From Methanoculleus horonobensis (GTDB lineage: Archaea; Halobacteriota; Methanomicrobia; Methanomicrobiales; Methanoculleaceae): a stretch of 64,000 nt of DNA. The DNA is taken from NCBI RefSeq assembly GCF_001602375.1, contig NZ_BCNY01000013.1, positions 1 through 64,000 of the forward strand, given 5' to 3'. Positions 8,734 to 23,836 of this stretch are shown piece by piece (the stretch's first letter is position 1; each line of letters starts with the position of its first letter). Position numbers and translations under genes: made by a program. Below the pieces are notes generated by a model. It saw only the letters and a program-made list of their open reading frames with translations. It did no database searches and was not told the DNA's origin.

Positions 8734-9023
8734 GCATCGAGGAGTTCTCCGAAGGCATCGGATCGGCGGAGGATCTCCGGAACCGCCGGCTGGAGCGTGC
8801 CGGGATCGAGCGCATGCTGACCATCATCGGCGAGGCGGCAAAGATGGCATCGCCGGAGTTGCGCAGGGAGTACCCGGAGATCCCCTGGAGGGAGGCTGCG
8901 GGGATGCGGGATAAGATCGTCCACCATTACTTCGGCGTGGATTACGAAGCGGTGTTCCTGACCCTGCGCGATGATCTTCCGGTCCTTAAGCGAGAAATCC
9001 AGTCGATTCTTAACGAAGCCTAA
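8681..9023 (+). pseudogene. HepT-type HEPN toxin with a one-base frameshift near its start
   Basis: From the ATG at 8681 the frame reads MTPEDFR and then fails. Skipping one base at about 8702 gives an uninterrupted HepT sequence beginning YLHHILDAI, with GEAAKMASPELRREYPEIPW and RDKIVHHYFG, to the stop at 9023. The last segment is the Rx4HxY motif needed for HEPN RNase activity, and the HY tyrosine is the site MntA would AMPylate. No start codon opens the downstream frame before 8814, which is inside the domain. It is either a true inactivating mutation or a sequencing error. The rest of the frame is clean, so any mutation is recent. Confidence 0.8.
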
Positions 9024-9612: not shown

Positions 9613-9915
9613 ATGCTTACGGCTGACGGCATTCTCGGTGCGCTGGCGGAACACCGCGAACGGATCAGGAGCCTGGGCGTTCGGCGGATCGGGGTCTTCG
9701 GGTCGTTTGCCCGGGACGAGGGGCATGAAGAGAGCGATATCGATATTCTCATCGAGTTCAAGGAAGGAGGACGTTCTTTTGACACATACATGGACATCAA
9801 GTTCTTCCTCGAAGATCTCTTCGGGAGAAAAGTCGACCTCGTCGGCCGCGATGCCATAAAACCGGCTCTCGCACCGCATATCCTCCGGAGCGTTCGGTAT
9901 GTCCCGGGAATATAA
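9613..9915 (+). CDS. MntA-type minimal nucleotidyltransferase (antitoxin), third module
   Basis: An intact 100-residue protein starting MLTADGILGALAEHRERI, with GSFARDEGHEESDIDILIEF holding the nucleotidyltransferase signature and the catalytic DxD. It is nearly identical to the broken copy at 7742, so one is a recent duplicate. The stop overlaps a HEPN start codon at 9899, but the HEPN gene is lost after eight matching codons, so this antitoxin is an orphan here. It might still act on HEPN proteins elsewhere. tRNA-Leu follows about 90 bases on, in the opposite direction. Confidence 0.85.
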   Translation: MLTADGILGALAEHRERIRSLGVRRIGVFGSFARDEGHEESDIDILIEFKEGGRSFDTYMDIKFFLEDLFGRKVDLVGRDAIKPALAPHILRSVRYVPGI

Positions 9916-10003: not shown

Positions 10004-10088
10004 TGCGGGGGAAGGGATTCGAACCCTTGAACTCCTTCAAGACTGGACCCTAAATCCAGCGCCTTTGACCTGGCTCGGCAACCCCCGC
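10004..10088 (-). tRNA. tRNA-Leu (anticodon UAG)
   Basis: An 85-base class II tRNA. The acceptor stem GCGGGGG (10088 down) pairs perfectly with CCCCCGC. The anticodon stem-loop CTGGA-TTTAGGG-TCCAG gives anticodon TAG, which reads CUA leucine codons. A long variable arm (TTGAAGGAGTTCAA region) and the T-loop GGGTTCGAATCCC are present. Discriminator A is at 10004 and CCA is not encoded. No intron is seen. AT-rich TATA-like stretches at about 10092-10122 on the minus strand could be its promoter. Confidence 0.95.
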
Positions 10089-10275
10089 GTGCATATATGT
10101 CGGCGCCGGGAGCATTATATTTGTTCCCCGGCGGCCGGGGGTCGCCGGTGCCCTGCGCTCCGGGTGTCCCGGTACCTGCCTTTCGCAGACTCCCGGCACC
10201 CGGAGATCCGGCAGCTATCCGGTATCTGCGGCGCGCAACGGCTCCGGGACGGGCGTGGAAAATTATATTGTTTGC

Positions 10276-10289
10276 AAAATATAATATAT
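10276..10289 (+). promoter_or_regulatory. Candidate promoter of the eha-fwd operon
   Basis: The 337-base gap 10089-10425 is GC-rich near the tRNA and then turns sharply AT-rich. AAAATATAATATAT at 10276-10289 is the best TATA-like box and would give a leader of about 120 bases. A second weak AT-rich stretch near 10381 could be a proximal promoter. I see no other feature in the gap. Confidence 0.4.
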
Positions 10290-10425
10290 CTTATACAAAA
10301 TTAACCCGGGGGAGTATTGTGCCCGGGGTGCTCCACCGATGCATTCCGGCTAAATCATGCCCGAAATGGTAACAACAAAACCTTTATTGAATTGATCGAC
10401 CGTATTTTCCAGTAGTTGAGTGATA

Positions 10426-10911
10426 ATGCTGGGTGAGATCCTCCATATCCTGGCGGCGGCCGCTGTCAGCTGGATTCTCTTCGTTACCGTCGATATTCTC
10501 TTCAAATTGCCGGAAGCGGGGGGCGTCAGCGGAGCGTCGGCTATCGCGCGGGATATCGAGGCCGGCGGCGGCGCTCTCGCCGGCGGCACCATGATGGGGA
10601 ACATCGTCTGCTCCCCCGACGCCTCGGCCGGGACGCTCCTTGCCGCATGCGGCGTCTACGTCGCCGGCATCCCCGGCGGGCTCGTCGCGGCCGCGCTCGT
10701 CTTCATCGGCAACCGCATCTGCCACGACCCCGGCTATGCCGGAACCACCGGCGCAGTCCTCGCCACGTTCGTCGTCTACGGCTTCACGCTGGTCGGATTC
10801 GCCGCGACGGACTTCATCGCAGGGATGGTCATCGCCATCCTCACCATCCAGGGGCTCTCCCACGCCCATGCGAGCCGGCTCCTTGCACGGCTCTGGAGGG
10901 TCAGAGAGTGA
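10426..10911 (+). CDS. ehaB: Energy-converting hydrogenase A subunit B
   Basis: First gene of the Eha operon. Eha is a membrane [NiFe] hydrogenase that uses the ion gradient to drive H2-dependent ferredoxin reduction. The 161-residue membrane protein has about five hydrophobic helices. Its length, its position before the run of very small membrane genes and its glycine-rich DIEAGGGALAGGTMMG segment fit EhaB. No EhaA-like gene precedes it. I chose ATG 10426, with GAGTGA just upstream; an in-frame GTG lies at 10420. The stop overlaps the next start (GTGA). Confidence 0.82.
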   Translation: MLGEILHILAAAAVSWILFVTVDILFKLPEAGGVSGASAIARDIEAGGGALAGGTMMGNIVCSPDASAGTLLAACGVYVAGIPGGLVAAALVFIGNRICHDPGYAGTTGAVLATFVVYGFTLVGFAATDFIAGMVIAILTIQGLSHAHASRLLARLWRVRE

Positions 10912-11150
10912 TCGCGATCTACATCGTCGCCGCGATTGCGCTCTTTGCCGTCATCAGGGCCACCGTCGAGAAGAACACCGGGAGAAAGCTCCCCTACGTC
11001 AACGTCATGAACTTCGCCGTCGCCGGGACGATCGTCCTGCTCCTCGACCACCCGCTCGCCCTCGTCGCGGCCGCGGCCTACTTCGTCGGCTCGACGCTCG
11101 AGTCGAACGCCATCGCGAGCACCTACGCGGGGGGTGAGCGTCGTGGATGA
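10908..11150 (+). CDS. ehaC: Energy-converting hydrogenase A subunit C
   Basis: An 80-residue membrane protein with three hydrophobic segments and GRKLPYVNVMNF in its first loop. It starts with GTG overlapping the ehaB stop by four bases. The assignment rests on size and order within the Eha operon; this small subunit has no known catalytic motif and presumably forms part of the membrane arm. Confidence 0.78.
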   Translation: MIAIYIVAAIALFAVIRATVEKNTGRKLPYVNVMNFAVAGTIVLLLDHPLALVAAAAYFVGSTLESNAIASTYAGGERRG

Positions 11151-11379
11151 CCTTCTCGTCCTCCTCTTCGCGGCCGTGGCGGTCATCGGGGCGGTGAGCG
11201 CCTACCTCCAGCGGGACCGCTTCGGCAAGCTGATCGCCGTCGGTATCGTCTTCGGCGGCATCGCGCCGTTCATCGCCGCCCGCGGCTACCTGGACGTCCT
11301 CATCGCCGTCAGCCTGATCGTCCCCATCACCACGATCATCATGCTGCTCGTCTGCAGGAGGGATCCCCGTGACGCCTGA
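11143..11379 (+). CDS. ehaD: Energy-converting hydrogenase A subunit D
   Basis: A 78-residue, three-helix membrane protein (VDDLLVLLFAAVAVIG start, then GKLIAVGIVFGGIAPF). GTG 11143 is preferred because GGGGTGAG lies six bases upstream; GTG 11134 would add three residues. It overlaps the end of ehaC and the start of ehaE. Its size and place fit EhaD of the hydrogenase membrane arm. Confidence 0.75.
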   Translation: MDDLLVLLFAAVAVIGAVSAYLQRDRFGKLIAVGIVFGGIAPFIAARGYLDVLIAVSLIVPITTIIMLLVCRRDPRDA

Positions 11380-11608
11380 GTTCGTCCTCGGCTGCATCAT
11401 CCTCATCATCGGGGTGATCGCCGCCGGGTTCCCGCGCGAGAAGACCTACCTCTCACGGCTGATCAACCTCGAGATCCCCGCGTTCGGGCTCCTCCTGATC
11501 ATGCTCGCCTACGACGAGATGCTCGCCCTGCTGACGTTCATCGGGGTCACGGCGATCTCGACCTTCGTCCTCGTCCGGGCCATCGAGCGCAAGGAGGCAG
11601 CAGAATGA
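11369..11608 (+). CDS. ehaE: Energy-converting hydrogenase A subunit E
   Basis: A 79-residue membrane protein with helices at about 5-23, 36-54 and 55-70, and the loop FPREKTYLSRLINLEIPAFG. The GTG start at 11369 follows CAGGAGGGA and overlaps ehaD by 11 bases. Size and order fit EhaE. It is reminiscent of the small MnhC/NuoK-type subunits of related complexes. Confidence 0.77.
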   Translation: MTPEFVLGCIILIIGVIAAGFPREKTYLSRLINLEIPAFGLLLIMLAYDEMLALLTFIGVTAISTFVLVRAIERKEAAE

Positions 11609-12069
11609 CGCCGAACCGGTCGATCATCACCCGGATATCGGCGATAATCTCACGGGTCGAGAACCTCACCTCGCTCTATGCACTCCTCGCGATCGTCGTC
11701 GTCGCGCTCGGCCTCGTCACCCTGCCGTTCATCGCCTACCACGACGACCAGCTCTACCCGAAAGTCCTCGATCCCGAGAGCACCCTCCACCCCTACGACC
11801 GGGGCGGGGTACCGTTCGGGACGACTCCCGTCAAGGCGCAGTATCCCGAGAACTCGCCCTACGCCGGTTACGTGACGGCCTACCTGACCCCGTTCAGCCA
11901 GTGGCTCGCCGATACCACCCACCATATGGGAACGACGATCGTCGCCCACCCCGGCGGCATCATCGACGAGATCCTCTACAACACCCGGGGGCTGGATACC
12001 GTCGTCGAGACGAGCATCCTCTTCGTGGCGTTCGGGATCGCAAGTTACCTCTTCAGGAGGGATGACTGA
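11605..12069 (+). CDS. ehaF: Energy-converting hydrogenase A subunit F
   Basis: A 154-residue protein with an N-terminal helix at about 22-45, a long extracytoplasmic loop containing YHDDQLYPKVLDPESTLHPY and ending in LADTTHHMGT, and a C-terminal helix. Length and order fit EhaF. It starts ATGA-overlapped with ehaE and its stop touches the ehaG start, so translation is probably coupled. Confidence 0.8.
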   Translation: MTPNRSIITRISAIISRVENLTSLYALLAIVVVALGLVTLPFIAYHDDQLYPKVLDPESTLHPYDRGGVPFGTTPVKAQYPENSPYAGYVTAYLTPFSQWLADTTHHMGTTIVAHPGGIIDEILYNTRGLDTVVETSILFVAFGIASYLFRRDD

Positions 12070-12671
12070 TGGATATCGCCTATCCGGTCGGCCTCATCGT
12101 CGTCGCGGTCGCGATCATCATCGGGTTTGCCGCCCTCGTCCGGGAGAAGGACGACCTGCACCGGATCCTCCTCACCGACCTCGCGGAGATCCTCGCCCTC
12201 GTCCTGATCGCGCTCGTCGCCACCGACCTCGCCGAGGCGCTCATCCTCCCCGGGCTCGTCGTCGGGATATCCGAACTGATGGCCGTCTCGGAGGTCTACA
12301 TCGCGAAGGAAGGGCTCCGGGCGCCGACGGGGCCGCCGTTCCGGATCGAGGTGATGGACAGCGCTCCGGGCATCCTCGCGCTGATCCTGGTCGCCTACGG
12401 CATCGTCCTCTCGGGATTCACCGGCGGAGCGATCGCCGCGGTCGGCGCGGTCTTCTACTTCATGTGCCGGGGGCACGCCGAGCAGTTCGAGTTGATCGAG
12501 ACCGTGAGCGGCTACGCATGGGCGTTCTGGATAGGAGCGTTCTTCATCTTCATGTTCCTCCCCGCGTACTGGTTCTTTGCAGTGATGATCGCCGGAGGAG
12601 CGATCCTCATCAAAGTGATGGCGAAGATGTCCCTTGTCGGGACGATGCGGCGGGGTGGTCCGGATGTTTGA
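12069..12671 (+). CDS. ehaG: Energy-converting hydrogenase A subunit G
   Basis: A 200-residue membrane protein with about six helices and charged loops (REKDDLHRILLTDLAEI near residue 25). Length and position fit EhaG. The one-base TGATG overlap with ehaF and the eight-base overlap with ehaH indicate a single translationally coupled unit. It is part of the ion-translocating membrane arm by inference from the family. Confidence 0.8.
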   Translation: MDIAYPVGLIVVAVAIIIGFAALVREKDDLHRILLTDLAEILALVLIALVATDLAEALILPGLVVGISELMAVSEVYIAKEGLRAPTGPPFRIEVMDSAPGILALILVAYGIVLSGFTGGAIAAVGAVFYFMCRGHAEQFELIETVSGYAWAFWIGAFFIFMFLPAYWFFAVMIAGGAILIKVMAKMSLVGTMRRGGPDV

Positions 12672-13332
12672 TCTCCCCACGGCGAACATCGGCGGGCCGG
12701 ACCTCTTCGTACTGGAGTTCGGCGACATCGTCGCCTACTTCAGCCCCTACACCGCGGCGCTCTTCGTCTTCGCGCTCATCTTCACGGTTCTCGTCATCGT
12801 GAGCCGCCCGGAGCGTCAGGTGGACATCGCGTTCGGCGGCGACGCCTACTACACGAAGGTGGTCGACCCGGACCTCCTGCGGTTCCAGCGGTTCATGGCG
12901 ATCGCCTGCGGGCTCGCCACGCTCGGGGCGATGGTGACCGGGGACGTCTTCAACTTCACCCTCTTCGCCTCGATGGTGGGGATCACGAACATCGGCATCG
13001 TCGCGGCCTACCGGAACCGGCACGTCTTAAACGCCGCGTTCCAGTACGGCATCGTCGCGATGCTCGCCACCGTCCCGCTCTTCGGGGGCGCGGCGATCGT
13101 CCTTTCCAGCACCGGCACCCTGAGCATGTGGGAACTCTTCACCGCCGCGGTGACGGTCCCCCTCATCGCGAAGGCGTTCCTGGTTCTCGGCGTCATGGGA
13201 GAGGGGATGGCGCCGTTCTACATAGCAAAAGCGGAGATCACGAGAGCGCAGGGAGCGCCGTTCATCCTGATGGTGCACGTCAGCTCGCTCCTCCTCTTCC
13301 TGCGCGTAACGGAGATCGTCATATCGATGTGA
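12664..13332 (+). CDS. ehaH: Energy-converting hydrogenase A integral subunit H
   Basis: A 222-residue membrane protein with about six helices. EhaH is one of the two conserved large integral subunits, related to a segment of the proton-pumping NuoL/N family. Lysines and a glutamate within or near helices (for example AKAFLVLGVMGEGMAPF) are of the type used in ion transfer. I chose the ATG at 12664 inside the ehaG end; CGGGGTGG precedes it. Longer in-frame starts would read into ehaG. Confidence 0.82.
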   Translation: MFDLPTANIGGPDLFVLEFGDIVAYFSPYTAALFVFALIFTVLVIVSRPERQVDIAFGGDAYYTKVVDPDLLRFQRFMAIACGLATLGAMVTGDVFNFTLFASMVGITNIGIVAAYRNRHVLNAAFQYGIVAMLATVPLFGGAAIVLSSTGTLSMWELFTAAVTVPLIAKAFLVLGVMGEGMAPFYIAKAEITRAQGAPFILMVHVSSLLLFLRVTEIVISM

Positions 13333-13337
13333 TTGCC

Positions 13338-13541
13338 ATGAAGAAACGGACAGCACTGATTGTCGGGGTTGCCGCGGGCGTTATCGCGACGGCGGCCGGG
13401 CTCCTTGCCGCTCTCGGCTACCTCCCGGTCATTGCCGCGGAGATCGTCACGGTCGTCACGTTCCCGGCTTTCGTCATCTTCATCGCACTGTGGTGGAACG
13501 CAAAATCCGGAGAAGAAGATATCCCGTTCATAGGATACTGA
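13338..13541 (+). CDS. ehaI: Energy-converting hydrogenase A subunit I
   Basis: A 67-residue protein with two helices (about 6-27 and 30-53) and a polar tail ending DIPFIGY. The start MKKRTALIVG fits a membrane insertion signal. Its place between ehaH and ehaJ and its length fit EhaI. It is separated by only five bases from ehaH and one base from ehaJ. Confidence 0.78.
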   Translation: MKKRTALIVGVAAGVIATAAGLLAALGYLPVIAAEIVTVVTFPAFVIFIALWWNAKSGEEDIPFIGY

Positions 13542-13542
13542 C

Positions 13543-14388
13543 ATGATCGAATACCTGCTCTTTGCCACCTTCATCGGCCTGCTCTTCCACGGCATCCACC
13601 GGAAAGTCATCGCGAGAGTCCAGGGACGGCCCGGACCGCCGATCTGGCAGGAGATCCTCCATACCCTGAAGTTCTCCTTCAAACAGACCTGGATCCCGAA
13701 GACGGCCAGCCAGACGCTCTTTGTGGGGATCGTCTTCGTCGCCATCGGCATCTGGAGCGGAGCGCTCTTCCTCCTCCTCTCGGGAGGGAGCATCCTGCTC
13801 CTCTTTGCGGTCTACCTCCTCCACAAGATCGTGGAGCACGGGATGGGGCTCTCGACGGGTTCGCCCTACACGAAGTTCGGGGCGATCCGGTCGGTCATAT
13901 CGGCGGCATCGGAGCTCCCGCTTCTCGTCACCGTCATCGCGATCTACTTCTTCACCCGCTCGCTCTCGATCGCGGATATCACGGCCTACCAGGAGGCGAA
14001 CGGCCCGCTCCTCATCCTCGCGTTCCCGGCGGCCGTGGCGATGTATCTCGTGATCCTCTCCAAGATGCACTACGGCCCGTTCTCGATCATCGAGGCGAAG
14101 GAGATCGTGAGCGGGAACATGACCGAGCACTTCGGGGTCTGGCGCGCCGGGCTCGAGGTGGCGTACGCCCTCAAGACCTACGTCCTCCTCTACGCGTTCG
14201 TCCTCATCTTCATCGGGGCTCTGCCGCTCTGGCTGACGCTGCTCGCGATGCTCATCGTCCTGGTATCGCTCTCGTTCGTCTGCGCCGTCACCCCCATGCT
14301 CTCGCCCTACGACACCGTGACGATACAGACCCTGGTGACGGGCGCGCTCGTCATCTACATCGTCATCCTCGGGGTGGTGATGGGATGA
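13543..14388 (+). CDS. ehaJ: Energy-converting hydrogenase A integral subunit J (NuoH/HycD type)
   Basis: A 281-residue protein with about eight helices, the homologue of NuoH/HycD that connects the hydrogenase module to the membrane arm. Typical NuoH-family features are seen: the RVQGRPGPPIWQ segment near residue 25 and the FSIIEAKEIVSG segment, with its conserved glutamate, near 180. Length equals the family's usual size. It overlaps the next gene by four bases. Confidence 0.9.
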   Translation: MIEYLLFATFIGLLFHGIHRKVIARVQGRPGPPIWQEILHTLKFSFKQTWIPKTASQTLFVGIVFVAIGIWSGALFLLLSGGSILLLFAVYLLHKIVEHGMGLSTGSPYTKFGAIRSVISAASELPLLVTVIAIYFFTRSLSIADITAYQEANGPLLILAFPAAVAMYLVILSKMHYGPFSIIEAKEIVSGNMTEHFGVWRAGLEVAYALKTYVLLYAFVLIFIGALPLWLTLLAMLIVLVSLSFVCAVTPMLSPYDTVTIQTLVTGALVIYIVILGVVMG

Positions 14389-14636
14389 ACGTGATGCGGC
14401 TCCTGATCACGGCGGGAGCGGCTTTCTACGCCGTGGTGTTCCTCGTCCAGGTCGCCCGGAACGCGAGCGTGGCCGGCCAGGCGCTGGCGGGGGTCGTCCT
14501 GCTCGCCGTCGTTGCGGGCCTCACCTGGATGCACGACGAACTCGCCCTGAAACGCTACGAGGTAGCTCTGCTCTGGGTGATGGTGCTCGGGTTCCTCGCC
14601 TACGCGGCGGCACACGCACTGGGGGTGCTCGTGTGA
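14385..14636 (+). CDS. Small energy-converting hydrogenase A membrane subunit (EhaK or EhaL)
   Basis: An 83-residue protein with three hydrophobic segments and the loop TWMHDELALKRYEV. It lies where EhaK and EhaL occur in Methanobacteriales, but only one gene is present here. I cannot tell which of the two it represents. The ATG overlaps the ehaJ stop, and the end overlaps the GTG of the next gene. Confidence 0.7.
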   Translation: MNVMRLLITAGAAFYAVVFLVQVARNASVAGQALAGVVLLAVVAGLTWMHDELALKRYEVALLWVMVLGFLAYAAAHALGVLV

Positions 14637-15016
14637 AGTACCTCTACGAAAAAGACCTTCGCCAGATGAAGTACAACATCCTGACGAGCACGAGACACGA
14701 CGAGGCCGTCCGGGCGATCGCAGAGCGCCTCGGGATGAGCGATGCGAAACTCCGGATGGTGCTGATCCGGCGGTTCGACATGTCCCTGCTCGAGAACCTC
14801 GAATCCCGGTGGCAGATGGGGCAGCGGCACGCGGCCGACGGCGATCCGGTCGCGGAAGAACTCGGCTACGAACTCTTCACCCGGTTCATCCCCCTCATGG
14901 ATACAGAGACAATGCAGACGATCTACAGCGACACGACAACAATGACCAGAGAGATGCCCTTTGAAGAGGCGATAGCAAGAGGAAAAGAACGGCTCAGGGA
15001 GGCGATCCGCTCATGA
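14633..15016 (+). CDS. ehaM: Energy-converting hydrogenase A subunit M
   Basis: A 127-residue soluble, mainly helical protein with no membrane segment, starting MKYLYEKDLRQMKYNIL and rich in Met and Arg. It sits directly before the small hydrogenase subunit, as EhaM does in other methanogens, and its length fits. The role is unknown; it is probably peripheral on the cytoplasmic side. The GTG start overlaps the previous stop, and the ATGA at its end starts ehaN. Confidence 0.8.
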   Translation: MKYLYEKDLRQMKYNILTSTRHDEAVRAIAERLGMSDAKLRMVLIRRFDMSLLENLESRWQMGQRHAADGDPVAEELGYELFTRFIPLMDTETMQTIYSDTTTMTREMPFEEAIARGKERLREAIRS

Positions 15017-15468
15017 GCATCCTTCAGAAGATCAAGAACACCGTCCGTTCGAGGTCGATCCACGTCGCTTACGTCGACGTCGGGTCGTGCAACGGCTGCG
15101 ACATCGAGGTGCTCGCCTGCCTCGCCCCGCGCTACGACATCGAGCAGTACGGGATCTACGTCCACAACAACCCGCGGGAGGCCGACGTCCTCCTGGTGAT
15201 CGGCTCCGTCACCCCCCAGTGGGTCGACAAACTCCGCGACATCTGGGATAAGATCCCGGAGCCGAAAGTTGCCGTCGCCATCGGCAACTGCCCCATATCG
15301 GGATGTGTCTATGCCCGGAGGGGTACCTTGACGAGCCCGCCCGTCGAGAAGTACATACCGATAGCCGCCCAGGTGCCGGGCTGCCCGCCCCGCCCTACGG
15401 AGATCTTGAACGCCATACTCTCGGTCGCACCGCTGATATTCAAGGATTACGAGGAGAAACAGCCATGA
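15013..15468 (+). CDS. ehaN: Energy-converting hydrogenase A small subunit (NuoB-like)
   Basis: A 151-residue Fe-S subunit of the [NiFe] hydrogenase, related to NuoB. It carries the single proximal [4Fe-4S] cluster that passes electrons between the NiFe site and the polyferredoxin. The expected ligands are visible: C26 and C29 in SCNGC, C93 in GNCPISGC and C124 in GCPPRP. The length is that of the short energy-converting type without extra C-terminal clusters. It overlaps ehaO by four bases. Confidence 0.93.
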   Translation: MSILQKIKNTVRSRSIHVAYVDVGSCNGCDIEVLACLAPRYDIEQYGIYVHNNPREADVLLVIGSVTPQWVDKLRDIWDKIPEPKVAVAIGNCPISGCVYARRGTLTSPPVEKYIPIAAQVPGCPPRPTEILNAILSVAPLIFKDYEEKQP

Positions 15469-16553
15469 AGAAGACTGTCGACGTCTCCATCCCGCTCGGC
15501 CCGATGCACCCCTGCTGGAAGGAGCCCGTCCGCCTCAAGTGCGAGACGGCGGGCGAGCGGGTGCTCAAGACCGAGGTCGAACTCGGCTACATGAAGAAGG
15601 GGATCGAGCGGATCATGCAGGGCCGCCCCTGGCAGGAGGTGATGTTCCTCGCCGAACGGGTCTGCGGCATCTGCTCGGTCATCCACAACATGGTCTTCAT
15701 CGAGACGATGGAGGAGATCAGCGATATCGCTGTTCCGCCGCGGGCGGCCTATCTCCGGGTCATCGTGAACGAGCTCGACCGAATGGCAAGCCACATCCTG
15801 GCGAACTTCTCCTACTGCTACACGATCGAGCACGAGACGCTCGCGATGTACCTCCTGAATACCCGGGAGACGGTGCTCGACAACCTGGAGCGGATCACGG
15901 GTTCGAGGATCAACACCGCCTACATGATCCCGGGCGGCGTCCGGTTCGATCTCCTCCCCGAGGACGCCGCGGCGCTGCTCGCCGACCTCGCGAAGGTGGA
16001 GGAGGAGATGAGGCGGCACGTCCGGATCTTCGAGACCGGCCCGCTGATTGCGCTCAGGAGCAAGGGGGTCGGGTATATGAGCCGGGAAGACGCGATCCGC
16101 GCCTATACCGTCGGCCCCACCGCCCGGGCGAGCGGTGTCGAGGACTCCGACCTCCGCCTCCGCCACCCGACCTACCGAGAACTCGGGTTTACCCAGATAA
16201 CCCGGACGGAGGGCGACAACTTCGCCCGGATCATGGTCCGGTTCCAGGAGGTCTTCCAGAGCATCGATCTGATCCGGAAGTGTGTGGAGACCCTCCCCGA
16301 AGGCCCCATCCGGGGCGGCGGCCTCTGCAAGGCGGGCGAGGCCTCGTATGCCGGCGAGGCCCCGCGGGGCGAGCTCACCTACACCATCAAGACCGACGAA
16401 TACGGCCGGGTGGTCGATATCGCCATCCGGACGCCGTCGATCATGAACATCGAGGCCTGTGCCCACTTCATGATCGTGGATGCCGCGTCGATCGCCGACG
16501 TGACGTCGACGTTCATCAGCAGCGACCCCTGCATCGCGTGCAACGAGAGGTGA
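15465..16553 (+). CDS. ehaO: Energy-converting hydrogenase A large (NiFe) subunit
   Basis: The 362-residue catalytic subunit that binds the NiFe centre and oxidises or evolves H2. Both cysteine pairs are intact: ERVCGIC (C67, C70) and, at the very C-terminus, DPCIACNER (C356, C359). The protein ends two to three residues after the second pair, so there is no cleavable extension and no maturation protease should be needed, as is normal for some energy-converting types. It is related to NuoD. Confidence 0.94.
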   Translation: MKKTVDVSIPLGPMHPCWKEPVRLKCETAGERVLKTEVELGYMKKGIERIMQGRPWQEVMFLAERVCGICSVIHNMVFIETMEEISDIAVPPRAAYLRVIVNELDRMASHILANFSYCYTIEHETLAMYLLNTRETVLDNLERITGSRINTAYMIPGGVRFDLLPEDAAALLADLAKVEEEMRRHVRIFETGPLIALRSKGVGYMSREDAIRAYTVGPTARASGVEDSDLRLRHPTYRELGFTQITRTEGDNFARIMVRFQEVFQSIDLIRKCVETLPEGPIRGGGLCKAGEASYAGEAPRGELTYTIKTDEYGRVVDIAIRTPSIMNIEACAHFMIVDAASIADVTSTFISSDPCIACNER

Positions 16554-16557
16554 AGAG

Positions 16558-17166
16558 ATGCGATCGTTCATCTACTACCTGCGGGAGTTCCTCCGGCCGG
16601 AATGGATCCGGAAGTTCTTCTCGGTAAAGACCGCGCCGCTCGAGACCCCCTCCTACTTCAAGGGCTACCCGACCCGGACGGAGAAGGAGTGCACGCATTG
16701 CCTCTCCTGCATGATGATCTGCCCTGCACCCGGAGCGATCGCCGTCCTCCGCAAGAAGGACGGGTGGGAGCCGGAGGTCTACCCCGGCCACTGCATCCGG
16801 TGCGGCCTCTGCGTCGAGGCGTGCCCTGAAGGAGTTCTCTCGAGCGGCCGGATCCTCGACGTCACCGACCGCGATAAGACGGCGTTCGCCTCGTGGTATC
16901 ACCTGGATGTCGACGACAATCTCTGCATGCGGTGCGGGAACTGCTGCGTCTCCTGCCCGGTCAACCGGGAGATCGACCCCCAGCTCGCGGGATCCGGGAC
17001 GTCCGCGAGCGACGAGGTGATCATGCGGGTCGAGGGCGGCCGGGTGCGGATACTCCATCTGGAGAAGTGTACGGGGTGCAAGACCTGCGAGACCCAGTGC
17101 CCGAACCGTGCGATCCGCGTCGCCCGCATGGTGGAAGGGGTGCAATTAGGGGAGGCAGAGGCGTGA
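16558..17166 (+). CDS. Polyferredoxin with four [4Fe-4S] clusters (EhaP-like)
   Basis: A 202-residue soluble protein with four CxxCxxCxxxCP motifs: CTHCLSCMMICP (about 43), CIRCGLCVEACP (79), CMRCGNCCVSCP (122) and CTGCKTCETQCP (172). It should carry electrons between the EhaN cluster and ferredoxin or the formylmethanofuran dehydrogenase encoded next. The EhaP/EhaQ proteins known from Methanobacteriales have more clusters, so this is a shorter relative and I leave the symbol blank. It lies four bases after ehaO and overlaps fwdD, which suggests a direct electron path from hydrogenase to Fwd. Confidence 0.85.
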   Translation: MRSFIYYLREFLRPEWIRKFFSVKTAPLETPSYFKGYPTRTEKECTHCLSCMMICPAPGAIAVLRKKDGWEPEVYPGHCIRCGLCVEACPEGVLSSGRILDVTDRDKTAFASWYHLDVDDNLCMRCGNCCVSCPVNREIDPQLAGSGTSASDEVIMRVEGGRVRILHLEKCTGCKTCETQCPNRAIRVARMVEGVQLGEAEA

Positions 17167-17552
17167 CCTACCTCATGCTCACCGGACGGACGGTGAACCA
17201 GGGCGTGACCGTCGAGAACAAGACCTCCGCCGAATACGCGGCCGAGACCTCGACCTGCTTCATGCACGAGTTCGATATGATGGAACTCGGGCTCGACGAC
17301 AGGGATACCGTCCGGGTGACCGGGCCCTGCGGCGACGTCGTCATGCGTGCGGTGGCGTCGGTCGAGGTGGAGATGGGCACCGTCTTCGTCCCTTACGGGC
17401 CCTACGCGAACCACATCGTCGCCGCCGGCACCCGCTCCACCGGGATGCCGGACTTCAAGTCCCACGTGGTGGAGATCGAACCGACCGACGACGAACCAAA
17501 GACCGTTCACGAACTGATGGAAGACCTGGGAGGCCTTGCTTATGATCGTTAA
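17163..17552 (+). CDS. fwdD: Formylmethanofuran dehydrogenase subunit D
   Basis: FwdD is the small molybdopterin-dinucleotide-binding domain, detached from FwdB, in the enzyme that reduces CO2 to formylmethanofuran. The 129-residue product has the typical TGRTVNQG start, ending in GDVVMRAVASVEV and FVPYGPYAN. GTG at 17163 overlaps the polyferredoxin stop; an internal ATG at 17175 is the alternative. It overlaps fwdB by 11 bases. Confidence 0.93.
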   Translation: MTYLMLTGRTVNQGVTVENKTSAEYAAETSTCFMHEFDMMELGLDDRDTVRVTGPCGDVVMRAVASVEVEMGTVFVPYGPYANHIVAAGTRSTGMPDFKSHVVEIEPTDDEPKTVHELMEDLGGLAYDR

Positions 17553-18831
17553 GGACGCGGTCTGCCCATTCTGCGGATGCCTCTGCGACGACATCGAGGT
17601 CGAAGTCGAGGAGGGCAGGGTGGTCGCCGTGACGAATGCCTGCGAGCTCGGGACGACGAAGTTCATGGGCGAGAAGAGGATGAAGAACCCGATCCGGCGC
17701 GTTGGAGACGAGTGGAAGGATATCACTTACGACGAGGCCATCCAGTACGCCGCCGATATGCTTCTATCCGCCGAACGGCCGCTCCTCTACGGGTGGAGCG
17801 GCACCCACGGGGAGGCGCAGTGCGTGGGGGTGCATATGGCCGAACTCATCCGCGGCGTCATCGACAACACCTCCTCGGTCTGCCACGGCCCCTCGATCCT
17901 CGCCATCCAGGAGGTCGGGCACCCGGGATGCACGCTCGGGGTGGTGAAGAACCGGGCGGATCTCGTCATCTACTGGGGATCGAACCCGATCGACGCCCAT
18001 CCCCGCCACCTCTCCCGCTACACCCGCTACGCGGAAGGGTTCTTCCTCGAGAACGCCTTCCGCGACCGGAAGGTGATCGTCGTCGACGTCAGGAAGACCG
18101 AGAGCGCGAACATCGCCGACGAGTTCGTCCAGATCAGGCCCGGCGGGGACTATGCGGTTCTCTCGGCGCTCCGGGCGATCGTCCAGGGGAAGGCGGACAC
18201 GATCCCGCGGACGGTCGCGGGCGTCACCCGCGAGCAGCTTATCCGGGTGGCGAACCTCTGCAAATCCGCGAAGTTCGGGGCGGTCTACTTCGGGCTCGGG
18301 CTCACGATGACGCAGGGGAAGTACAAGAACATCAGGAACGCCATCGAACTCGTCTCGGAACTGAGCCGGCACACGAAGTTCACCATCTCGGCGATGCGCG
18401 GCCACTACAACGTCTACGGCTCGAACGAAGTGAACACCTGGATGACCGGGTATCCCTTCGGGATCGACTTCTCGCGGGGGATCGCCTTCTACAACCCCGG
18501 GGAGACGACGGCGGTGGACATCCTGGCCCGGAAAGAGTGCGACGCGGCGCTGGTCGTCGGGAGCGACCCGGCCGCCCACTTCCCGCGGAAGTGCCTCGAA
18601 CACCTCGCAGAGATCCCGGTCGTTCAGCTCGACCCCTACCCGAACGCCACCACCGCGTTCTGCAACGTCCAGATCCCGGTCGCGGTGACCGGGATCGACG
18701 CGGAAGGAACGGCCTACAGGATGGACGGGGTGCCTATCCGGACGCGGAGAGTCCTCTGGACAGACTACCTCTCCGACGAAGAGGTTCTTGCACGGATGTA
18801 CGCCCTGATGCAGGAGGCGCAACAGCCATGA
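17542..18831 (+). CDS. fwdB: Formylmethanofuran dehydrogenase subunit B (W/Mo-pterin catalytic)
   Basis: The 429-residue formate dehydrogenase-like subunit that reduces CO2 to formate at a tungsto- or molybdopterin. The N-terminal cluster motif CPFCGCLC with C34 binds one [4Fe-4S]. SSVCHGPS supplies the metal-ligating cysteine, C114; it is Cys and not selenocysteine. I cannot tell tungsten from molybdenum from the sequence, so the Fwd/Fmd choice is by convention. ATG 17542 is preferred to a TTG two codons upstream. Confidence 0.94.
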   Translation: MIVKDAVCPFCGCLCDDIEVEVEEGRVVAVTNACELGTTKFMGEKRMKNPIRRVGDEWKDITYDEAIQYAADMLLSAERPLLYGWSGTHGEAQCVGVHMAELIRGVIDNTSSVCHGPSILAIQEVGHPGCTLGVVKNRADLVIYWGSNPIDAHPRHLSRYTRYAEGFFLENAFRDRKVIVVDVRKTESANIADEFVQIRPGGDYAVLSALRAIVQGKADTIPRTVAGVTREQLIRVANLCKSAKFGAVYFGLGLTMTQGKYKNIRNAIELVSELSRHTKFTISAMRGHYNVYGSNEVNTWMTGYPFGIDFSRGIAFYNPGETTAVDILARKECDAALVVGSDPAAHFPRKCLEHLAEIPVVQLDPYPNATTAFCNVQIPVAVTGIDAEGTAYRMDGVPIRTRRVLWTDYLSDEEVLARMYALMQEAQQP

Positions 18832-20528
18832 CGGAGCTCCTGGTGAAGAACGCCTGCGTCATCGATCCGCTCCGCGGGATCAATGGCGAAACGATGGATA
18901 TCGCCATCCTTGATGGGAAGATCGTCGAGGAGGTGAGCGCTGCCGCAGAGGTGATCGACGCTCACGGGATGCTCACCATGCCGGGAGGGGTCGATTCCCA
19001 CACCCATATCTGCGGAACGAAGGTGAACTTCGGGCGGTACATGAGCCCGGAGGATATGCGGGCAGGGAGGACGCCCCGCCGGGGGGCGATGCACGCCACG
19101 TCCGGCTACAGCGTCCCGACGACCTACGGCAACAGTTACCGCTACAGCGTGATGGGCTATACGACCCTGCTCGAGGGCGCGATGGCACCGCTCGAGGCCC
19201 GCCACACCCACGAGGAGTTTACCTACACGCCGCTGCAGGACACGATGGCGAACACCCTCTTCGACGGAAACTGGGGGGTCATGGAGGCGATCCGCGACGG
19301 CGACATAAAACGGGTCGCCGCGATCATCGCCTGGACGCTTTCGGCCGTGAAGGGGTTCGCCATCAAACTCACGAACCCCGGCGGTACCGAGGCCTGGCAG
19401 TGGGGCAAGAACGTCTCCTGCATCCGCGATCCGGTGCCCTACTTCGAGGTGACGCCCGCGGAGATCATCCGGTCGATGGTGGAGGCGAACGAACTCCTCC
19501 ACCTCCCGCACTCCGTCCACCTCCACTGCAACAACCTGGGCACCCCGGGGAACTACTCCTGCACGCTCGGGTCGTTCGGCCTCATCCCCGACCTGAACGA
19601 AAAGAGGCAGACGCTGTATGCAACCCACGTCCAGTTCCACGCCTACGGCGGGTCGGAGTGGAAGGATTTCTGCTCGAAGAGCGAGCCGATCGCGCGGTTC
19701 GTCAACATGCGGCCGCAGATCGTCATGGACATGGGGCAGGTGATGTTCGGCCGGACGACGACGATGACCGCCGACGGGCCGATGGAGTTCAACCTCTACC
19801 GCCTCCACCACGAGAAGTGGAGCAACCATGACGTGGAGCTCGAGACGGGGTCGGGGATCATCCCGGTCATGTACCGGCGCAAGAACCTGGTCAACTCGAT
19901 CATGTGGGCGATCGGCCTCGAGCTCGCGCTCCTCACGGAGAGCCCCTGGCAGTGCCTGCTCACGACGGACAACCCGAACGGTGCGCCGTTCGTCAAGTAC
20001 CCGGAGATCATCGGCCTCCTGATGAGCAAGCGGTACCGCGACGCCGAGTTCGCGACGATCCATCCCGATACCGAAGCACGGGTGCCCCTCCCGGCAATCG
20101 AGCGCGAACTGGACTGGTACGAGATCGCGGTGATGACCCGGGCCGGCGCGGCGAAGGCGCTCGGGATCCAGGATCTCGGGAAAGGGCATCTTGCGCCGGG
20201 CGCCGATGCGGACGTCGCCATCTATCCTCTCAAGATAGGCGAGGTCGATCCCTCGGCCGAGTACCAGAAAGTCATCGATGGGTTCAGCAAGACAGAATAC
20301 ACGATCAAGCGGGGCAGGGTCGTTGCCCGGCGGGGCGACTGCCTGGTTCACGGAACCAACGCCACGTTCTGGGTCAAACCAAAGGTTCCGGAGAACTACG
20401 ATATGGGGAAAGATCCGGACTTCATCGAGAAGTTCGACCGCTACTACACCGTCCGGATGAGCAACTACCCGGTCCAGGAGGAGTACCTGGCCCGGAACCG
20501 GTGTATCGAGACGGAGGCGGATCTATGA
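18828..20528 (+). CDS. fwdA: Formylmethanofuran dehydrogenase subunit A (binuclear-metal amidohydrolase)
   Basis: A 566-residue dihydroorotase-like subunit that condenses formate, delivered through an internal tunnel from FwdB, with methanofuran. The first metal-binding motif DSHTH is at 57-61, and the later GFAIKLTNPGG and HLHCNNLG segments are also metal-site regions of the family. Full family length. The ATG at 18828 overlaps the fwdB stop by four bases; the frame is open far upstream inside fwdB, but only noise is encoded there. Confidence 0.95.
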   Translation: MTELLVKNACVIDPLRGINGETMDIAILDGKIVEEVSAAAEVIDAHGMLTMPGGVDSHTHICGTKVNFGRYMSPEDMRAGRTPRRGAMHATSGYSVPTTYGNSYRYSVMGYTTLLEGAMAPLEARHTHEEFTYTPLQDTMANTLFDGNWGVMEAIRDGDIKRVAAIIAWTLSAVKGFAIKLTNPGGTEAWQWGKNVSCIRDPVPYFEVTPAEIIRSMVEANELLHLPHSVHLHCNNLGTPGNYSCTLGSFGLIPDLNEKRQTLYATHVQFHAYGGSEWKDFCSKSEPIARFVNMRPQIVMDMGQVMFGRTTTMTADGPMEFNLYRLHHEKWSNHDVELETGSGIIPVMYRRKNLVNSIMWAIGLELALLTESPWQCLLTTDNPNGAPFVKYPEIIGLLMSKRYRDAEFATIHPDTEARVPLPAIERELDWYEIAVMTRAGAAKALGIQDLGKGHLAPGADADVAIYPLKIGEVDPSAEYQKVIDGFSKTEYTIKRGRVVARRGDCLVHGTNATFWVKPKVPENYDMGKDPDFIEKFDRYYTVRMSNYPVQEEYLARNRCIETEADL

Positions 20529-21292
20529 AGGTCACGCTCGCGATGAAGCCCGCGGCGAAGGGATTTATCCCGATCGAGGCGGAGTCGATCGTCCCGAAGA
20601 ACTTCCTTGCCGGCACCGATCTCCTGGTCTGGCGGGGGAACCGGGAGCTCCGGCTCGACGAGGTCTTCTCGGTCTCGGTGGAGGGCGAGGCCGATCGGGC
20701 GGAGGGCGTCGAGGTCGTCCTCTCGGGAGAGACGTTCCGGTTGAAGAGAGTCGGCGAGTACATGGACGGAGGGAAGATCACCGTCCTCGGCGGCATCGGG
20801 ATGCACTGCGGCAACTTCATGAGCGGCGGGACGATCGAGATCCACGGGAACGCCGACGGCTGGCTCGGCCGGGAGATGGCGGGAGGAACCATCATCTGCC
20901 GGGGCGACGCCGCCGACTACTGCGCCTCGGGATACCGCGGCGGCCGGAAGGGCATGAAGGGGGGCACCGTGGAGGTCTTTGGCCGCGCCGGGGATTTCCT
21001 CGCGGAGAGCCTCGCGGGCGGGACGGTGATCGTCCACGGCGATGCCGGGGATATGACCGGGGCGGAGATGCGCGGGGGCACGCTCGTCGTCCACGGGAAC
21101 TGCAGCCGCCCGGCCGCAAACATGAAAGGGGGCTCCTGCTACGTCTACGGCACCGCACGGGGTATGCTCCCCACCTTCAGAAAGATCGGGACGGTACAGC
21201 ACGATGGGCGCACGCTTATCCAGTTTGCCGGCGATCTCGCGAACCGCGGGAAAGGAAACCTTTTTGTGAAGGGCTACGAATATCTGGACTGA
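20525..21292 (+). CDS. fwdC: Formylmethanofuran dehydrogenase subunit C
   Basis: A 255-residue right-handed beta-helix protein, related to the C-terminal domain of glutamate synthase, that scaffolds FwdA and FwdB. It shows the repeated GG-T-x-x-x-x-G-x-A-G/D rungs (for example MSGGTIEIHGNADG, MAGGTIICRGDA, LAGGTVIVHGDAG). It starts ATGA-overlapped with fwdA. Unlike some other methanogens, no fwdE, fwdF or fwdG follows; the four-cluster protein at 16558 may serve instead. Confidence 0.95.
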   Translation: MKVTLAMKPAAKGFIPIEAESIVPKNFLAGTDLLVWRGNRELRLDEVFSVSVEGEADRAEGVEVVLSGETFRLKRVGEYMDGGKITVLGGIGMHCGNFMSGGTIEIHGNADGWLGREMAGGTIICRGDAADYCASGYRGGRKGMKGGTVEVFGRAGDFLAESLAGGTVIVHGDAGDMTGAEMRGGTLVVHGNCSRPAANMKGGSCYVYGTARGMLPTFRKIGTVQHDGRTLIQFAGDLANRGKGNLFVKGYEYLD

Positions 21293-21441
21293 TGGTCAGG
21301 CACGAGTGTGGGTTCGAGGCCCCGATCCACTGCAAACGGTGTGGGAGGCCGCTGGAGAGCAACGAGCGCACGGGCCTTTACTGCCCGCACTGCGGAAGAA
21401 GAGTGAGTATGCTCTGCCCGGGCTGCGGTCGTCTCTGGTGA
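21292..21441 (+). CDS. 49-residue zinc-ribbon protein overlapping fwdC
   Basis: The ATG uses the last base of the fwdC stop (TGATG), so translation is likely coupled. The product has three CxxC pairs (CKRC, CPHC, CPGC) plus another Cys near the start, typical of one or two small zinc ribbons. It ends in GRLW. Its place as the last gene of the eha-fwd operon hints at a role in assembly or regulation, but no family is recognised. It faces the DUF1922 gene, with four bases between the stops. Confidence 0.68.
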   Translation: MVRHECGFEAPIHCKRCGRPLESNERTGLYCPHCGRRVSMLCPGCGRLW

Positions 21442-21445
21442 CCGG

Positions 21446-21712
21446 TCAGACCCGGCTCTTCACCCACCGGGCATACTGCGCCCTGAGCTGGCGGATGTCC
21501 TGTTCCGTGAGATCTTTTTTCCCCGTCTGGTGCAGGTAGGACTCGAGCTGCTCCACGACCCGTTCTGCATCTAAAAAGTCGTCGACGTCCAGGTAGACCG
21601 GCGCCCGCTGGACGTTGATCACCTCGCCGCACATCGGACAGAGCCTCCAGCGCTGATAGCGGTCGACGTAGTTGAAGGTTTTGCAGCCCGGACAGCGGAT
21701 GACGAGGTACAT
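21446..21712 (-). CDS. DUF1922-type zinc-ribbon protein
   Basis: An 88-residue protein starting MYLVIRCPGC, with a second CPMC pair that completes a zinc ribbon. A polar helical region follows (DDFLDAERVVEQLESYLHQ). This layout is that of the archaeal DUF1922 family, whose function is unknown. The C-terminal part (LTEQDIRQLRAQYARWV) appears to be an added helix. It is convergent with the end of the fwd operon. Confidence 0.72.
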   Translation of the reverse strand: MYLVIRCPGCKTFNYVDRYQRWRLCPMCGEVINVQRAPVYLDVDDFLDAERVVEQLESYLHQTGKKDLTEQDIRQLRAQYARWVKSRV

Positions 21713-22094: not shown

Positions 22095-23633
22095 TCACCC
22101 CCCTCGCGGCTTGAGATCCCTCACCGCCGGCCCGTGGATCACCTTCCCGTCGGCATCGAACCGGGAACCGTGGCAGGGGCAGTCCCAGGTCTCTTCGGCG
22201 CTGTTCCACGCGGCGACGCACCCGAGGTGGGTGCAGGTGGGGTTGACCGCGTGAACCCGCCCTTTCTCGTCCCGGTAGACGCCGGCCTTCTCTCCCTCGA
22301 TCATCAGGATCCTTCCCTCGCCGGGTGCGACGTCCGCGAGGTCCCCGGCCGGCCGGGATATCGCGCCGCCGATATACTTCTCGGCGACCTCGATGTTGTG
22401 GACGAGGAACCGCCGGGCCGATGCCGCCGGCTTGAACCGGTTGGGGGCGTAGACCTCTGTCCAGGGGTTTGAGCCGCCCCGGATCATCTCCGTGATGATC
22501 GTCGCGGCCGCGGTGCCGTTGGTCATCCCCCACTTCCTGAATCCGGTCGCGATGTAGACGTTCTCGTGGCCGTCGGCGAGCCGGCCGATGTAGGGGACGC
22601 CGTCGACGGTGATGTAGTCCTGCGCCGACCACCGGTAGTCGACGGACCGGAGCGGGTAGATAGACCGGGCGTAGGCCTCGAGGTCGCGGTAGTATCTCCG
22701 CGTGTCCACGTCCTCCCCGGTCCGGTGCCCCATGCCGCCGACGATGACGAGTTCGCCGCCGTCGGCGGGCTGCGACCGCCAGGAGTGGGCGGGGCCTTCG
22801 GCGTTGATGAACATCCCCTCGGGGAAGGGCTCGTCGATCCGGACGCCGAGCGCGTAGGAGCGCGACGGCTCCATTCGGGCGAAGTAGAACCCCGGCGCAT
22901 CGTAGAAGGGGTAGTGGGTCGCGAGAACCACGGTGTCTGCCGTGACGACTCCCGACGTCGTCCTGACCGTGCACCGGCCTCCCCCGTCCTGCACCTCGAG
23001 CGCCCGGGTCTTCTCGTAGATCCGGCTCCCGTCGCCGGGGATCAGCGACGCCAGGTGCAGGAGGTACTTCACCGGGTGGAACTGCGCCTGGTTCTCGAGG
23101 ACGACCGCGCCGTAGCTCCGGGCGGGGAGCGCCATCTCCTCCACGAACGCGGCAGGAAGCCCGAGACTCCGTGCCGCGTCCGCCTCGGCCGCGACCTTCT
23201 CCCGGGCCTCTTCCGTCTCCGCGTAGGTATAGGCCGGTTTCTGGATGAAGTCGCAGGCGATGCCGTATTCCCTGACGAGGGACGCTATCGTCTCGATCGC
23301 CGCCTGGTTCGCTTCGGCATACTGCTGCGCCGGCCTGCCCCCGAACCGGTCGATGAGCTCCTTGTAGATCAGCCGGTGGAGCGCCGTGACCTTCGCCGTC
23401 GTGTGCCCGGTCACCCCGTGACAGATCCGGTTCCCCTCGAGCAGGGTGACCGCGTAACCGGCCCGTTTGAGCAGGACGGCGGTGGTGATCCCGGTGATGC
23501 CGCCGCCGATCACCACCACATCGGTCTCCAGGTTCCCCGGCAGCGGGGGATGCGGCGTCTCCGCCGCGGTAGTCTCCATCCAGAACGACCCGTGCCTGCC
23601 CGGCAGGCCATATGCACCCGGCCCATGCTCCAT
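22095..23633 (-). CDS. FAD-dependent oxidoreductase with C-terminal Rieske domain
   Basis: A 512-residue fusion. A DAO-type FAD domain starts with the dinucleotide motif VVVIGGGITG near residue 40 and spans to about 390. A Rieske [2Fe-2S] domain follows with CTHLGC at 467-472 and CPCHG at 485-489, giving the two Cys and two His ligands. This architecture is known in bacteria and some archaea; the substrate (an amine or glycine-betaine-like compound) is not established. The ATG at 23633 is preferred; a frame extension upstream is basic and unlike the family. It is monocistronic, divergent from the glycosyltransferase at 23837. Confidence 0.88.
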   Translation of the reverse strand: MEHGPGAYGLPGRHGSFWMETTAAETPHPPLPGNLETDVVVIGGGITGITTAVLLKRAGYAVTLLEGNRICHGVTGHTTAKVTALHRLIYKELIDRFGGRPAQQYAEANQAAIETIASLVREYGIACDFIQKPAYTYAETEEAREKVAAEADAARSLGLPAAFVEEMALPARSYGAVVLENQAQFHPVKYLLHLASLIPGDGSRIYEKTRALEVQDGGGRCTVRTTSGVVTADTVVLATHYPFYDAPGFYFARMEPSRSYALGVRIDEPFPEGMFINAEGPAHSWRSQPADGGELVIVGGMGHRTGEDVDTRRYYRDLEAYARSIYPLRSVDYRWSAQDYITVDGVPYIGRLADGHENVYIATGFRKWGMTNGTAAATIITEMIRGGSNPWTEVYAPNRFKPAASARRFLVHNIEVAEKYIGGAISRPAGDLADVAPGEGRILMIEGEKAGVYRDEKGRVHAVNPTCTHLGCVAAWNSAEETWDCPCHGSRFDADGKVIHGPAVRDLKPRGG

Positions 23634-23836
23634 ACGTCCAGCCTCCTTCTGCCCGCCCGGCCTTCTGTTCAGGCGGCGGCGGGCGGTCAGCATTATGCCG
23701 GGAGCATATATAGGTATGGAACGCGCCTCCCCTCTGGCACCCGTCCCGCGATTCTGCAGGGCACGGTGCCGGGAGCGCCGGGCCCTCCCCGCCGTTACGC
23801 ATAAGAACGATCGCGAGCATGGGGGGAGCGATCAGG

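Follow-up and report, generated by a model that had tools for sequence, protein, structure and literature searches.

A FwdG domain fused to a hydrogenase subunit in the eha-fwd gene cluster of Methanoculleus horonobensis, a probable direct link between H2 oxidation and CO2 reduction

How the electrons that the [NiFe] hydrogenase Eha takes from H2 are delivered to CO2 is a question raised by a gene cluster of Methanoculleus horonobensis, in which the genes for Eha and for a formylmethanofuran dehydrogenase (Fwd) follow each other on one strand. The cluster lies in the 64-kb window analyzed here, i.e. the whole stretch of DNA at the start of contig C13 (the genome comprises 2.45 Mb in 15 contigs). 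The reduction of CO2 to formylmethanofuran needs about −500 mV and H2 in vivo is near −300 mV (PMC3087415; this and the other papers given by PMC number are cited for those parts of their text that bear on the cluster), so that an H2-driven CO2 reduction must spend an ion gradient. A preliminary description of the locus had noted a four-cluster polyferredoxin between the hydrogenase and fwd genes, the absence of both FwdF and FwdG, and perhaps a physical supercomplex. The polyferredoxin, termed pFd in the following, is indeed present, and no FwdF was found within 10426-21441 among the open reading frames (ORFs) or by family searches. FwdG, in contrast, is not missing: it corresponds to the C-terminal half of pFd.

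The pFd protein is predicted, from its sequence and a structural model, to join one electron-carrying part of a hydrogenase to one of formylmethanofuran dehydrogenase. Residues 114-188 match 9sfi_U (1.7e-14), which was deposited merely as a 4Fe-4S binding protein and is read here as FwdG, and residues 120-190 match FwdG of 5t5i (chain G, 2.9e-12), the match to FwdG covering the stretch between the two clusters as well. The N-terminal part resembles HycF (7z0s_F, residues 25-145) and MbhN (6cfw_N, residues 23-97). A profile built from 34 C-terminal halves gave best single-domain scores of 79.8 bits for 9sfi_U, 66 bits for 5t5i_G and 52.8 bits for 7bkb_L, versus 36.9 bits for the best FwdF domain printed. 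The corresponding profile of 34 N-terminal halves matched 6u8y_N (NuoI, 1.7e-9), HycF (7z0s_F, 1.1e-8) and MbhN (6cfw_N, 1.3e-6) in a ranking that sets aside multi-domain polyferredoxins, which lead by summed score. Applied to cysteine-motif ORFs of nearby genomes, the C-half profile placed six separate FwdGs (labelled as such from their position beside fwdF or fwd and from these same profiles) at 43-57 bits and FwdF at no more than 31 bits, and it ranked the fusion of a distant genome above FwdF, too. The N-half profile yielded 105 bits for an unfused protein of 104 amino acids (aa; locus L150), 94 bits for the distant-genome fusion and at most 23 bits for all others.

The AlphaFold2 model of pFd (mean predicted local distance difference test score 89.2, predicted template modelling score 0.66) was aligned with FwdG 5t5i_G at Z 12.4 and a root-mean-square deviation (rmsd) of 1.9 over 78 of 80 residues (VIA-align). 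The matches to 7bkb_L (Z 9.8) and 8rja_F (Z 9.5) are not decisive on their own, since unrelated structures occur from Z 9.3 downwards; that to 5t5i_G is. NuoI was not among the 50 VIA-align rows obtained with the whole model, and the N-terminal half was therefore folded and searched alone, whereupon all 12 Foldseek matches with E ≤ 0.001 were complex I subunit I or HycF. FwdF is on top of the raw lists (the profile table and structure ranks 1-7) through its summed domains, with an rmsd of about 23. The HycB chain 7z0s_B matched pFd weakly (E 3.3e-3, rmsd 15.7); its place would be taken by the FwdG half. In the literature FwdG appears as an unusually folded domain with two clusters, which forms an electron-supplying core together with FwdF (PMC12517254). 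The possibility that the C-terminal half is a mere generic dicluster ferredoxin was rejected, because single-domain scores separate FwdG from the domains of FwdF, NuoI and HdrA, and FwdG is clearly the best structural match. With the C-terminal half identified in this way, the supposedly missing FwdG is this half of pFd.

The fusion is highly conserved. Forty Eha loci were picked to span the genera of Methanomicrobiales from 141 genomes with a match (other group 4 hydrogenases included), and pFd follows EhaO in all of them. FwdD and FwdB are located downstream of pFd in 31 of these loci, just FwdA and FwdC without FwdD and FwdB in four, and no fwd gene in five. Among 80 named loci, pFd is complete in 76, truncated at contig ends in three and absent in one (L141), with a weak second pFd match in L052 left out of the counts; FwdB follows pFd in 69 of the 72 named loci with at least 2.5 kb downstream. 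A single contig scan for Eha yielded no loci but those of Methanomicrobiales and of unplaced Euryarchaeota bins similar in sequence. In a sample of 294 genomes drawn from the phylum, Eha was detected in three more genomes outside of the order: G273 has the fusion, while G172 and G221 have the N-half protein only. The unfused 104-aa version stands alone after EhaO in L150, also outside the order.

Within Methanomicrobiales, Eha, the fusion and one clade of Fwd are present or absent together. The phylum sample contains 55 genomes of the order, 46 of which encode Eha; the fusion is found in the same 46 and the other nine have neither. Beyond these 55, the fusion is missing from six more genomes without Eha and present in three with Eha. 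The test set for FwdB consisted of 59 genomes of the order for which the Eha status was known, to which G273 and G172 were added. Relatives of the window FwdB split into two score classes, separated by a gap from 466 to 529 bits. The upper class (≥529 bits, Eha-type) was found in 44 of 44 Eha-positive genomes of the order (15 + 29) and in none of the 15 Eha-negative ones (9 + 6), where the best score was 461 bits. In a tree of 45 FwdBs, thinned from 60 rows that took about half of the available linked FwdB rows, all 14 Hdr-type or other FwdBs are set apart from all 31 others with a support of 100. A side observation concerns the Eha locus L055, with FwdD, FwdB and FwdC, in which FwdA was not found and whose FwdB is the most divergent in the tree. 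At least three families (f3, f4 and f5) include genomes without Eha beside Eha-positive relatives, and at least three separate losses of Eha are therefore likely, as judged from family labels without a species tree. Linkage alone was considered as the cause of the co-occurrence and rejected, since six Eha-positive genomes (G001, G007, G013, G025, G031 and G043) keep their Eha-type fwd genes far from eha and nevertheless retain both. The stretches read around unlinked Eha-type fwd genes, at seven loci of the order (L152-L158) and at L161, contained no ORF that has a complete 4Cys ferredoxin motif. FwdG, FwdF or both are present in most of the other fwd clusters that were read.

On the observed gene content, domain identity, conservation, joint presence and loss, and lack of a separate FwdG gene beside Eha-type Fwd, the cluster is likely to encode one membrane-bound H2:CO2 oxidoreductase, composed of Eha, the fusion and Fwd and working without a diffusible ferredoxin. 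On balance, and with a little less assurance, we favor a stable Eha-Fwd supercomplex that acts as an ion-gradient-driven, H2-dependent CO2 reductase, comparable to a formate hydrogenlyase run backward and providing a second entry of CO2 beside electron bifurcation. In such a supercomplex, and held with the same guarded preference, the fusion would be the covalent part of a wire of six clusters (one in EhaN, four in the fusion, one in FwdB) from the [NiFe] to the Mo/W site. Contacts, electron path, direction and ion coupling, which we infer, would then be as follows. Electrons from H2 would enter at the [NiFe] site of EhaO and be lifted to low potential by the ion gradient, as expected from the hydrogenase family. 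From the EhaN cluster they would pass to the hydrogenase half of the fusion, cross the covalent link to its FwdG half, and then reach the [4Fe-4S] cluster of FwdB and the Mo/W-pterin, at which CO2 would be reduced to formate; FwdA would receive the formate, which would be bound to methanofuran there. The fusion would thereby replace FwdF and a separate FwdG and make a diffusible ferredoxin unnecessary. A precedent for a swapped electron-input module is the Fwd of an ethane-oxidizing archaeon, in which an F420-reductase subunit takes the place of FwdF (PMC11493965). The physical supercomplex suggested earlier gains support from the fusion of a hydrogenase subunit with FwdG and from the joint gain and loss with a Fwd clade. 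The overlapping gene junctions, among them that of pFd and FwdD, count in favor of the proposed enzyme as well.

Several observations weigh against a supercomplex. In nine of the 40 loci fwdDB is not located right after pFd and the fusion is still kept, so that the genes need not be linked. L141 (Methanospirillaceae) contains EhaO, but no fusion gene was found in the 3.2 kb that follow. G172, a genome from outside the order, has an unfused Eha subunit and encodes a FwdB of the wider Eha-type clade within an hdr operon (L162), so that this clade does not go with Eha in all genomes. At the position of the second cysteine in the first pFd motif (residue 48; window 16699-16701), about a dozen of the 41 proteins compared (the window protein and the aligned residues in L029-L068) have Glu, His, Ala, Ser or Thr instead, so that one cluster may be altered or short of a cysteine ligand in some genera. 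Finally, the role of the FwdG half could be limited to the docking of free ferredoxin. In L162, the genes are arranged as hdrA-mvhD-hdrC-hdrB-fwdDBAC, and no separate FwdG or FwdF was recognized beside them.

Among the alternatives, the one that survives best, although we regard it as unlikely, is that pFd is a diffusible polyferredoxin, which is reduced by Eha and then visits this Fwd as a private pool without a stable complex. It is close to the published proposal, according to which each Fwd cluster encodes its own ferredoxin with the electron pools kept apart (PMC5563889) and Eha reduces the ferredoxin used by Fmd (PMC2686161), and the unlinked fwd genes of some genomes fit it as well; however, both halves of pFd are related to tightly bound subunits (NuoI/HycF and FwdG) rather than to free ferredoxins, and no other FwdG was found beside Eha-type Fwd in the stretches read. 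Quite improbable is a function of pFd as output subunit of Eha only, its FwdG half docking free ferredoxins, with Fwd borrowing FwdF and FwdG from the hdr operon and the shared operon serving co-regulation. The hdr operon of the genome does encode both proteins and the fusion is kept where fwd is unlinked, but it would remain unexplained why, in the order, this FwdB clade is absent where Eha is absent while the Hdr-type FwdB, to which FwdF and FwdG would belong, stays. That the complex mainly runs in reverse, with formylmethanofuran oxidation to CO2 driving H2 release and ion export as in formate hydrogenlyase, is least probable of all, since the organism is hydrogenotrophic by relationship, even though the subunit logic is the same and direction is unreadable from sequence.

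Formate hydrogenlyase consists of a hydrogenase, HycF, a ferredoxin subunit and a molybdopterin enzyme. The E. coli complex (7z0s) shares with the Eha-Fwd cluster the group 4 [NiFe] hydrogenase, the HycF-type subunit, matched by the N-terminal half of pFd, and a molybdopterin enzyme active on formate; FwdBD presumably replaces FdhF, and we take the FwdG half to replace HycB. In contrast to formate hydrogenlyase, FwdA and FwdC are added, trapping formate on methanofuran, and the direction is probably that of CO2 reduction. Fwd/Fmd of Methanothermobacter wolfeii and the Hdr-Fwd complexes (5t5i, 7bkb and 9sfi) share FwdA, B, C, D and the FwdG fold but have a separate FwdG beside the polyferredoxin FwdF, whereas here FwdF is lacking and FwdG is fused to the hydrogenase subunit. 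The F420-reducing Fwd of the ethane oxidizer (8rja, PMC11493965), the closest solved FwdB and FwdA by score, shares the FwdABCDG core and has FwdF swapped for another electron module, which is a soluble F420 reductase there and a membrane hydrogenase here. Class I Eha (PMC3087415) has the EhaB-O core in common, but comprises the full EhaA-T with 6- and 10-cluster polyferredoxins.

The linkage of eha and fwd is itself not new, as it was published in 2009 and 2017. Anderson 2009 described eha beside formylmethanofuran dehydrogenase in three Methanomicrobiales and proposed that Eha reduces the ferredoxin of this enzyme (PMC2686161), and Gilmore 2017 distinguished an Eha-associated and an Hdr-associated Fwd set in Methanocorpusculum parvum, for which separate ferredoxin pools were proposed (PMC5563889). 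A study of a Methanoculleus metagenome-assembled genome lists four fwd loci, which adjoin Ech, Eha, Hdr and Fdh (PMC11201294). The published loci of Methanomicrobiales agree with the present one in genes, gene order, a proposed functional coupling and at least two Fwd copies with separate ferredoxin reducers; the link is treated as a ferredoxin in the relevant parts of these three papers, which name neither FwdG within it nor the joint loss with a FwdB clade. Subunit M was reported as absent (PMC2686161), while DUF1959/MTH396 was found here; the same source reports subunit A as absent in other Methanomicrobiales and eha as not linked to fmd in Methanococcus maripaludis. Metatranscriptomes showed up-regulation of eha genes in two Methanoculleus after ammonia shock (PMC10785759). 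A survey of archaeal fusions lists FwdB-FwdD fusions in Methanomicrobiales and does not mention an Eha-FwdG fusion in its matching parts (PMC11237513). No report of a FwdG-hydrogenase fusion or of its joint loss with a FwdB clade was found in searches of an open-licence library. While the linkage was known, new points are the fusion with FwdG, the constancy with which it is kept, and the finding that Eha, the fusion and a FwdB clade are present or lost together.

The features of the cluster are given in Table 1. The preliminary description of one overlapping operon of about 18 genes is borne out by 18 ORFs on the plus strand between 10426 and 21292, where 14 of the 17 junctions are overlaps of 1-17 bases and the other three are gaps of 1-5 bases; its end at 21441 is the stop of a conserved zinc-ribbon ORF. 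The overlaps are seen again in other genomes, in which up to 40 loci were compared (that of pFd and FwdD in 29 of 30), and are therefore not due to chance. A matched synthesis of both enzymes, also proposed before, is well supported by the single strand, the overlapping starts and stops and the gene order conserved across Methanomicrobiales.

Table 1. Features of the eha-fwd cluster and its immediate neighbors (window coordinates).
Feature	Position	Strand	Basis or remark
tRNA-Leu	10004-10088	opposite to cluster	
AT-rich upstream stretch, likely promoter region	10260..10425	+	inference, read from sequence
EhaB-like membrane protein, 161 aa	10426..10911	+	position and size; GTG start 10420 possible
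EhaC (DUF2109)	10908..11150	+	PF09882, 4.8e-30
EhaD (DUF2108)	11134..11379	+	PF09881, 4.8e-20
EhaE (DUF2107)	11369..11608	+	PF09880, 3.4e-30
EhaF (DUF2106)	11605..12069	+	PF09879, 2.3e-58
EhaG (DUF2105)	12069..12671	+	PF09878, 1.6e-73
EhaH, antiporter-like membrane subunit	12664..13332	+	PF10125, 1.6e-95
EhaI-like small membrane protein, 67 aa	13338..13541	+	position only; no family match; kept in related loci
EhaJ, NuoH-like membrane subunit	13543..14388	+	PF00146, 4.8e-30
EhaL-like small membrane protein, 83 aa	14385..14636	+	position only; no family match
EhaM (DUF1959)	14633..15016	+	PF09218, 1.6e-7, above cut-off; MTH396 (PDB 1nxh), 6.6e-4
EhaN, hydrogenase small subunit	15013..15468	+	PF01058, 5.7e-27
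EhaO, [NiFe] hydrogenase large subunit	15465..16553	+	PF00346, 1.1e-47; PF00374, 1.2e-12; MbhL 6cfw_L, 2.4e-55
pFd fusion, 202 aa, four 4Cys motifs	16558..17166	+	predicted NuoI/HycF-type hydrogenase subunit plus FwdG
pFd residues 1-106, NuoI/HycF/TYKY-type two-cluster domain	16558..16875	+	profile and Foldseek matches
pFd residues 112-202, FwdG domain	16891..17163	+	profile and structure matches
FwdD	17163..17552	+	NF042908, 1e-28; PF01568
FwdB, Mo/W-pterin and one [4Fe-4S], Eha-type clade	17542..18831	+	TIGR03129, 1.5e-181; 8rja_B, 5t5i_B; tree
FwdA, amidohydrolase subunit	18819..20528	+	TIGR03121, 1.1e-236; 8rja_A, 5t5i_A
FwdC	20525..21292	+	TIGR03122, 2.4e-67
Zinc-ribbon-like protein, 49 aa, final cluster gene	21292..21441	+	1-base overlap with fwdC stop
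DUF1922 gene	21446-21712	convergent	closes cluster

The Eha-specific membrane subunits are encoded in the expected order (DUF2109, 2108, 2107, 2106, 2105 and PF10125), and the Eha letters were assigned to the DUF families from what we take to be the order of the eha operon. Pfam and NCBIfam searches gave no match for the EhaB-like protein, the gene of which is kept upstream of EhaC in related loci. No ORF could be assigned to EhaA, K or P-T between 10089 and 16558 or downstream of fwdC. EhaO, with its nearest relatives in Methanoculleus and other Methanomicrobiaceae, contains both nickel-binding CxxC motifs (RVCGIC and DPCIAC), which align with MbhL, and DPCxxC was found near the C-terminal end in 40 of 40 orthologues. 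FwdA, B and C score above the cut-offs of TIGR03121, TIGR03129 and TIGR03122; FwdD reaches 100 bits, which is under the strict 175-bit cut-off of NF042908. Homologues of the zinc-ribbon protein, which perhaps plays a role in cofactor assembly or regulation, were found in 45 loci, mostly right after fwdC and, in loci without fwd, right after pFd. Upstream of the cluster (8814-9023 and 9613-9915) lies what we take to be a HEPN/nucleotidyltransferase pair of the HepT/MntA type, and an ORF on the minus strand (22095-23693), read by eye, may encode a FAD-dependent oxidoreductase in which a Rieske-type motif lies close to the end.

The genome encodes five FwdBs above the family cut-off, four of them outside the window. 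A second complete fwd operon, which the preliminary description had regarded as an argument against its proposal if it were the main one, does exist: fwdG-fwdF-hdrCBA-mvhD-fwdDBAC on C14, adjoining mcr, with FwdF at L023:13777-14946. This hdr-linked operon is probably the main CO2 route, and Eha-Fwd is probably an auxiliary route for CO2 entry beside the electron-bifurcating Hdr-Fwd. Two further FwdBs are encoded on C15, one at 668 kb in a neighborhood that includes moeA, a second set of mcr genes and an Ech-type hydrogenase, the other at 733 kb with fwdA. The first of these regions (about 652-682 kb; L024 and L025) contains a third fwdDBAC, from which the Ech-type hydrogenase is about 12 kb away. 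A fused FwdD-FwdB of the Eha-type clade is located near a contig end on C4 (L026:890-2653); in some genomes from other families, no Eha-type FwdB was found apart from related FwdD-FwdB fusions. On C11 (134-152 kb; L027), a third group 4 hydrogenase-like operon has the appearance of Hyf or formate hydrogenlyase. MvhD (FlpD), MoeA and the Ech large subunit were named by Pfam, Hdr and Mcr partly by reading the sequences.

The route of Eha electrons to CO2 has so far been treated as a matter of the ferredoxin pool. A covalent fusion of FwdG with a hydrogenase subunit makes the idea of a supercomplex a concrete and testable wiring, in which the FwdABCDG core would accept electrons from a third type of source, besides FwdF/Hdr and the F420 reductase, and the fusion may serve as a marker for predicting genomes with this route. 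If true, it would explain how CO2 reduction is kept going at low H2 or when intermediates for bifurcation are short.

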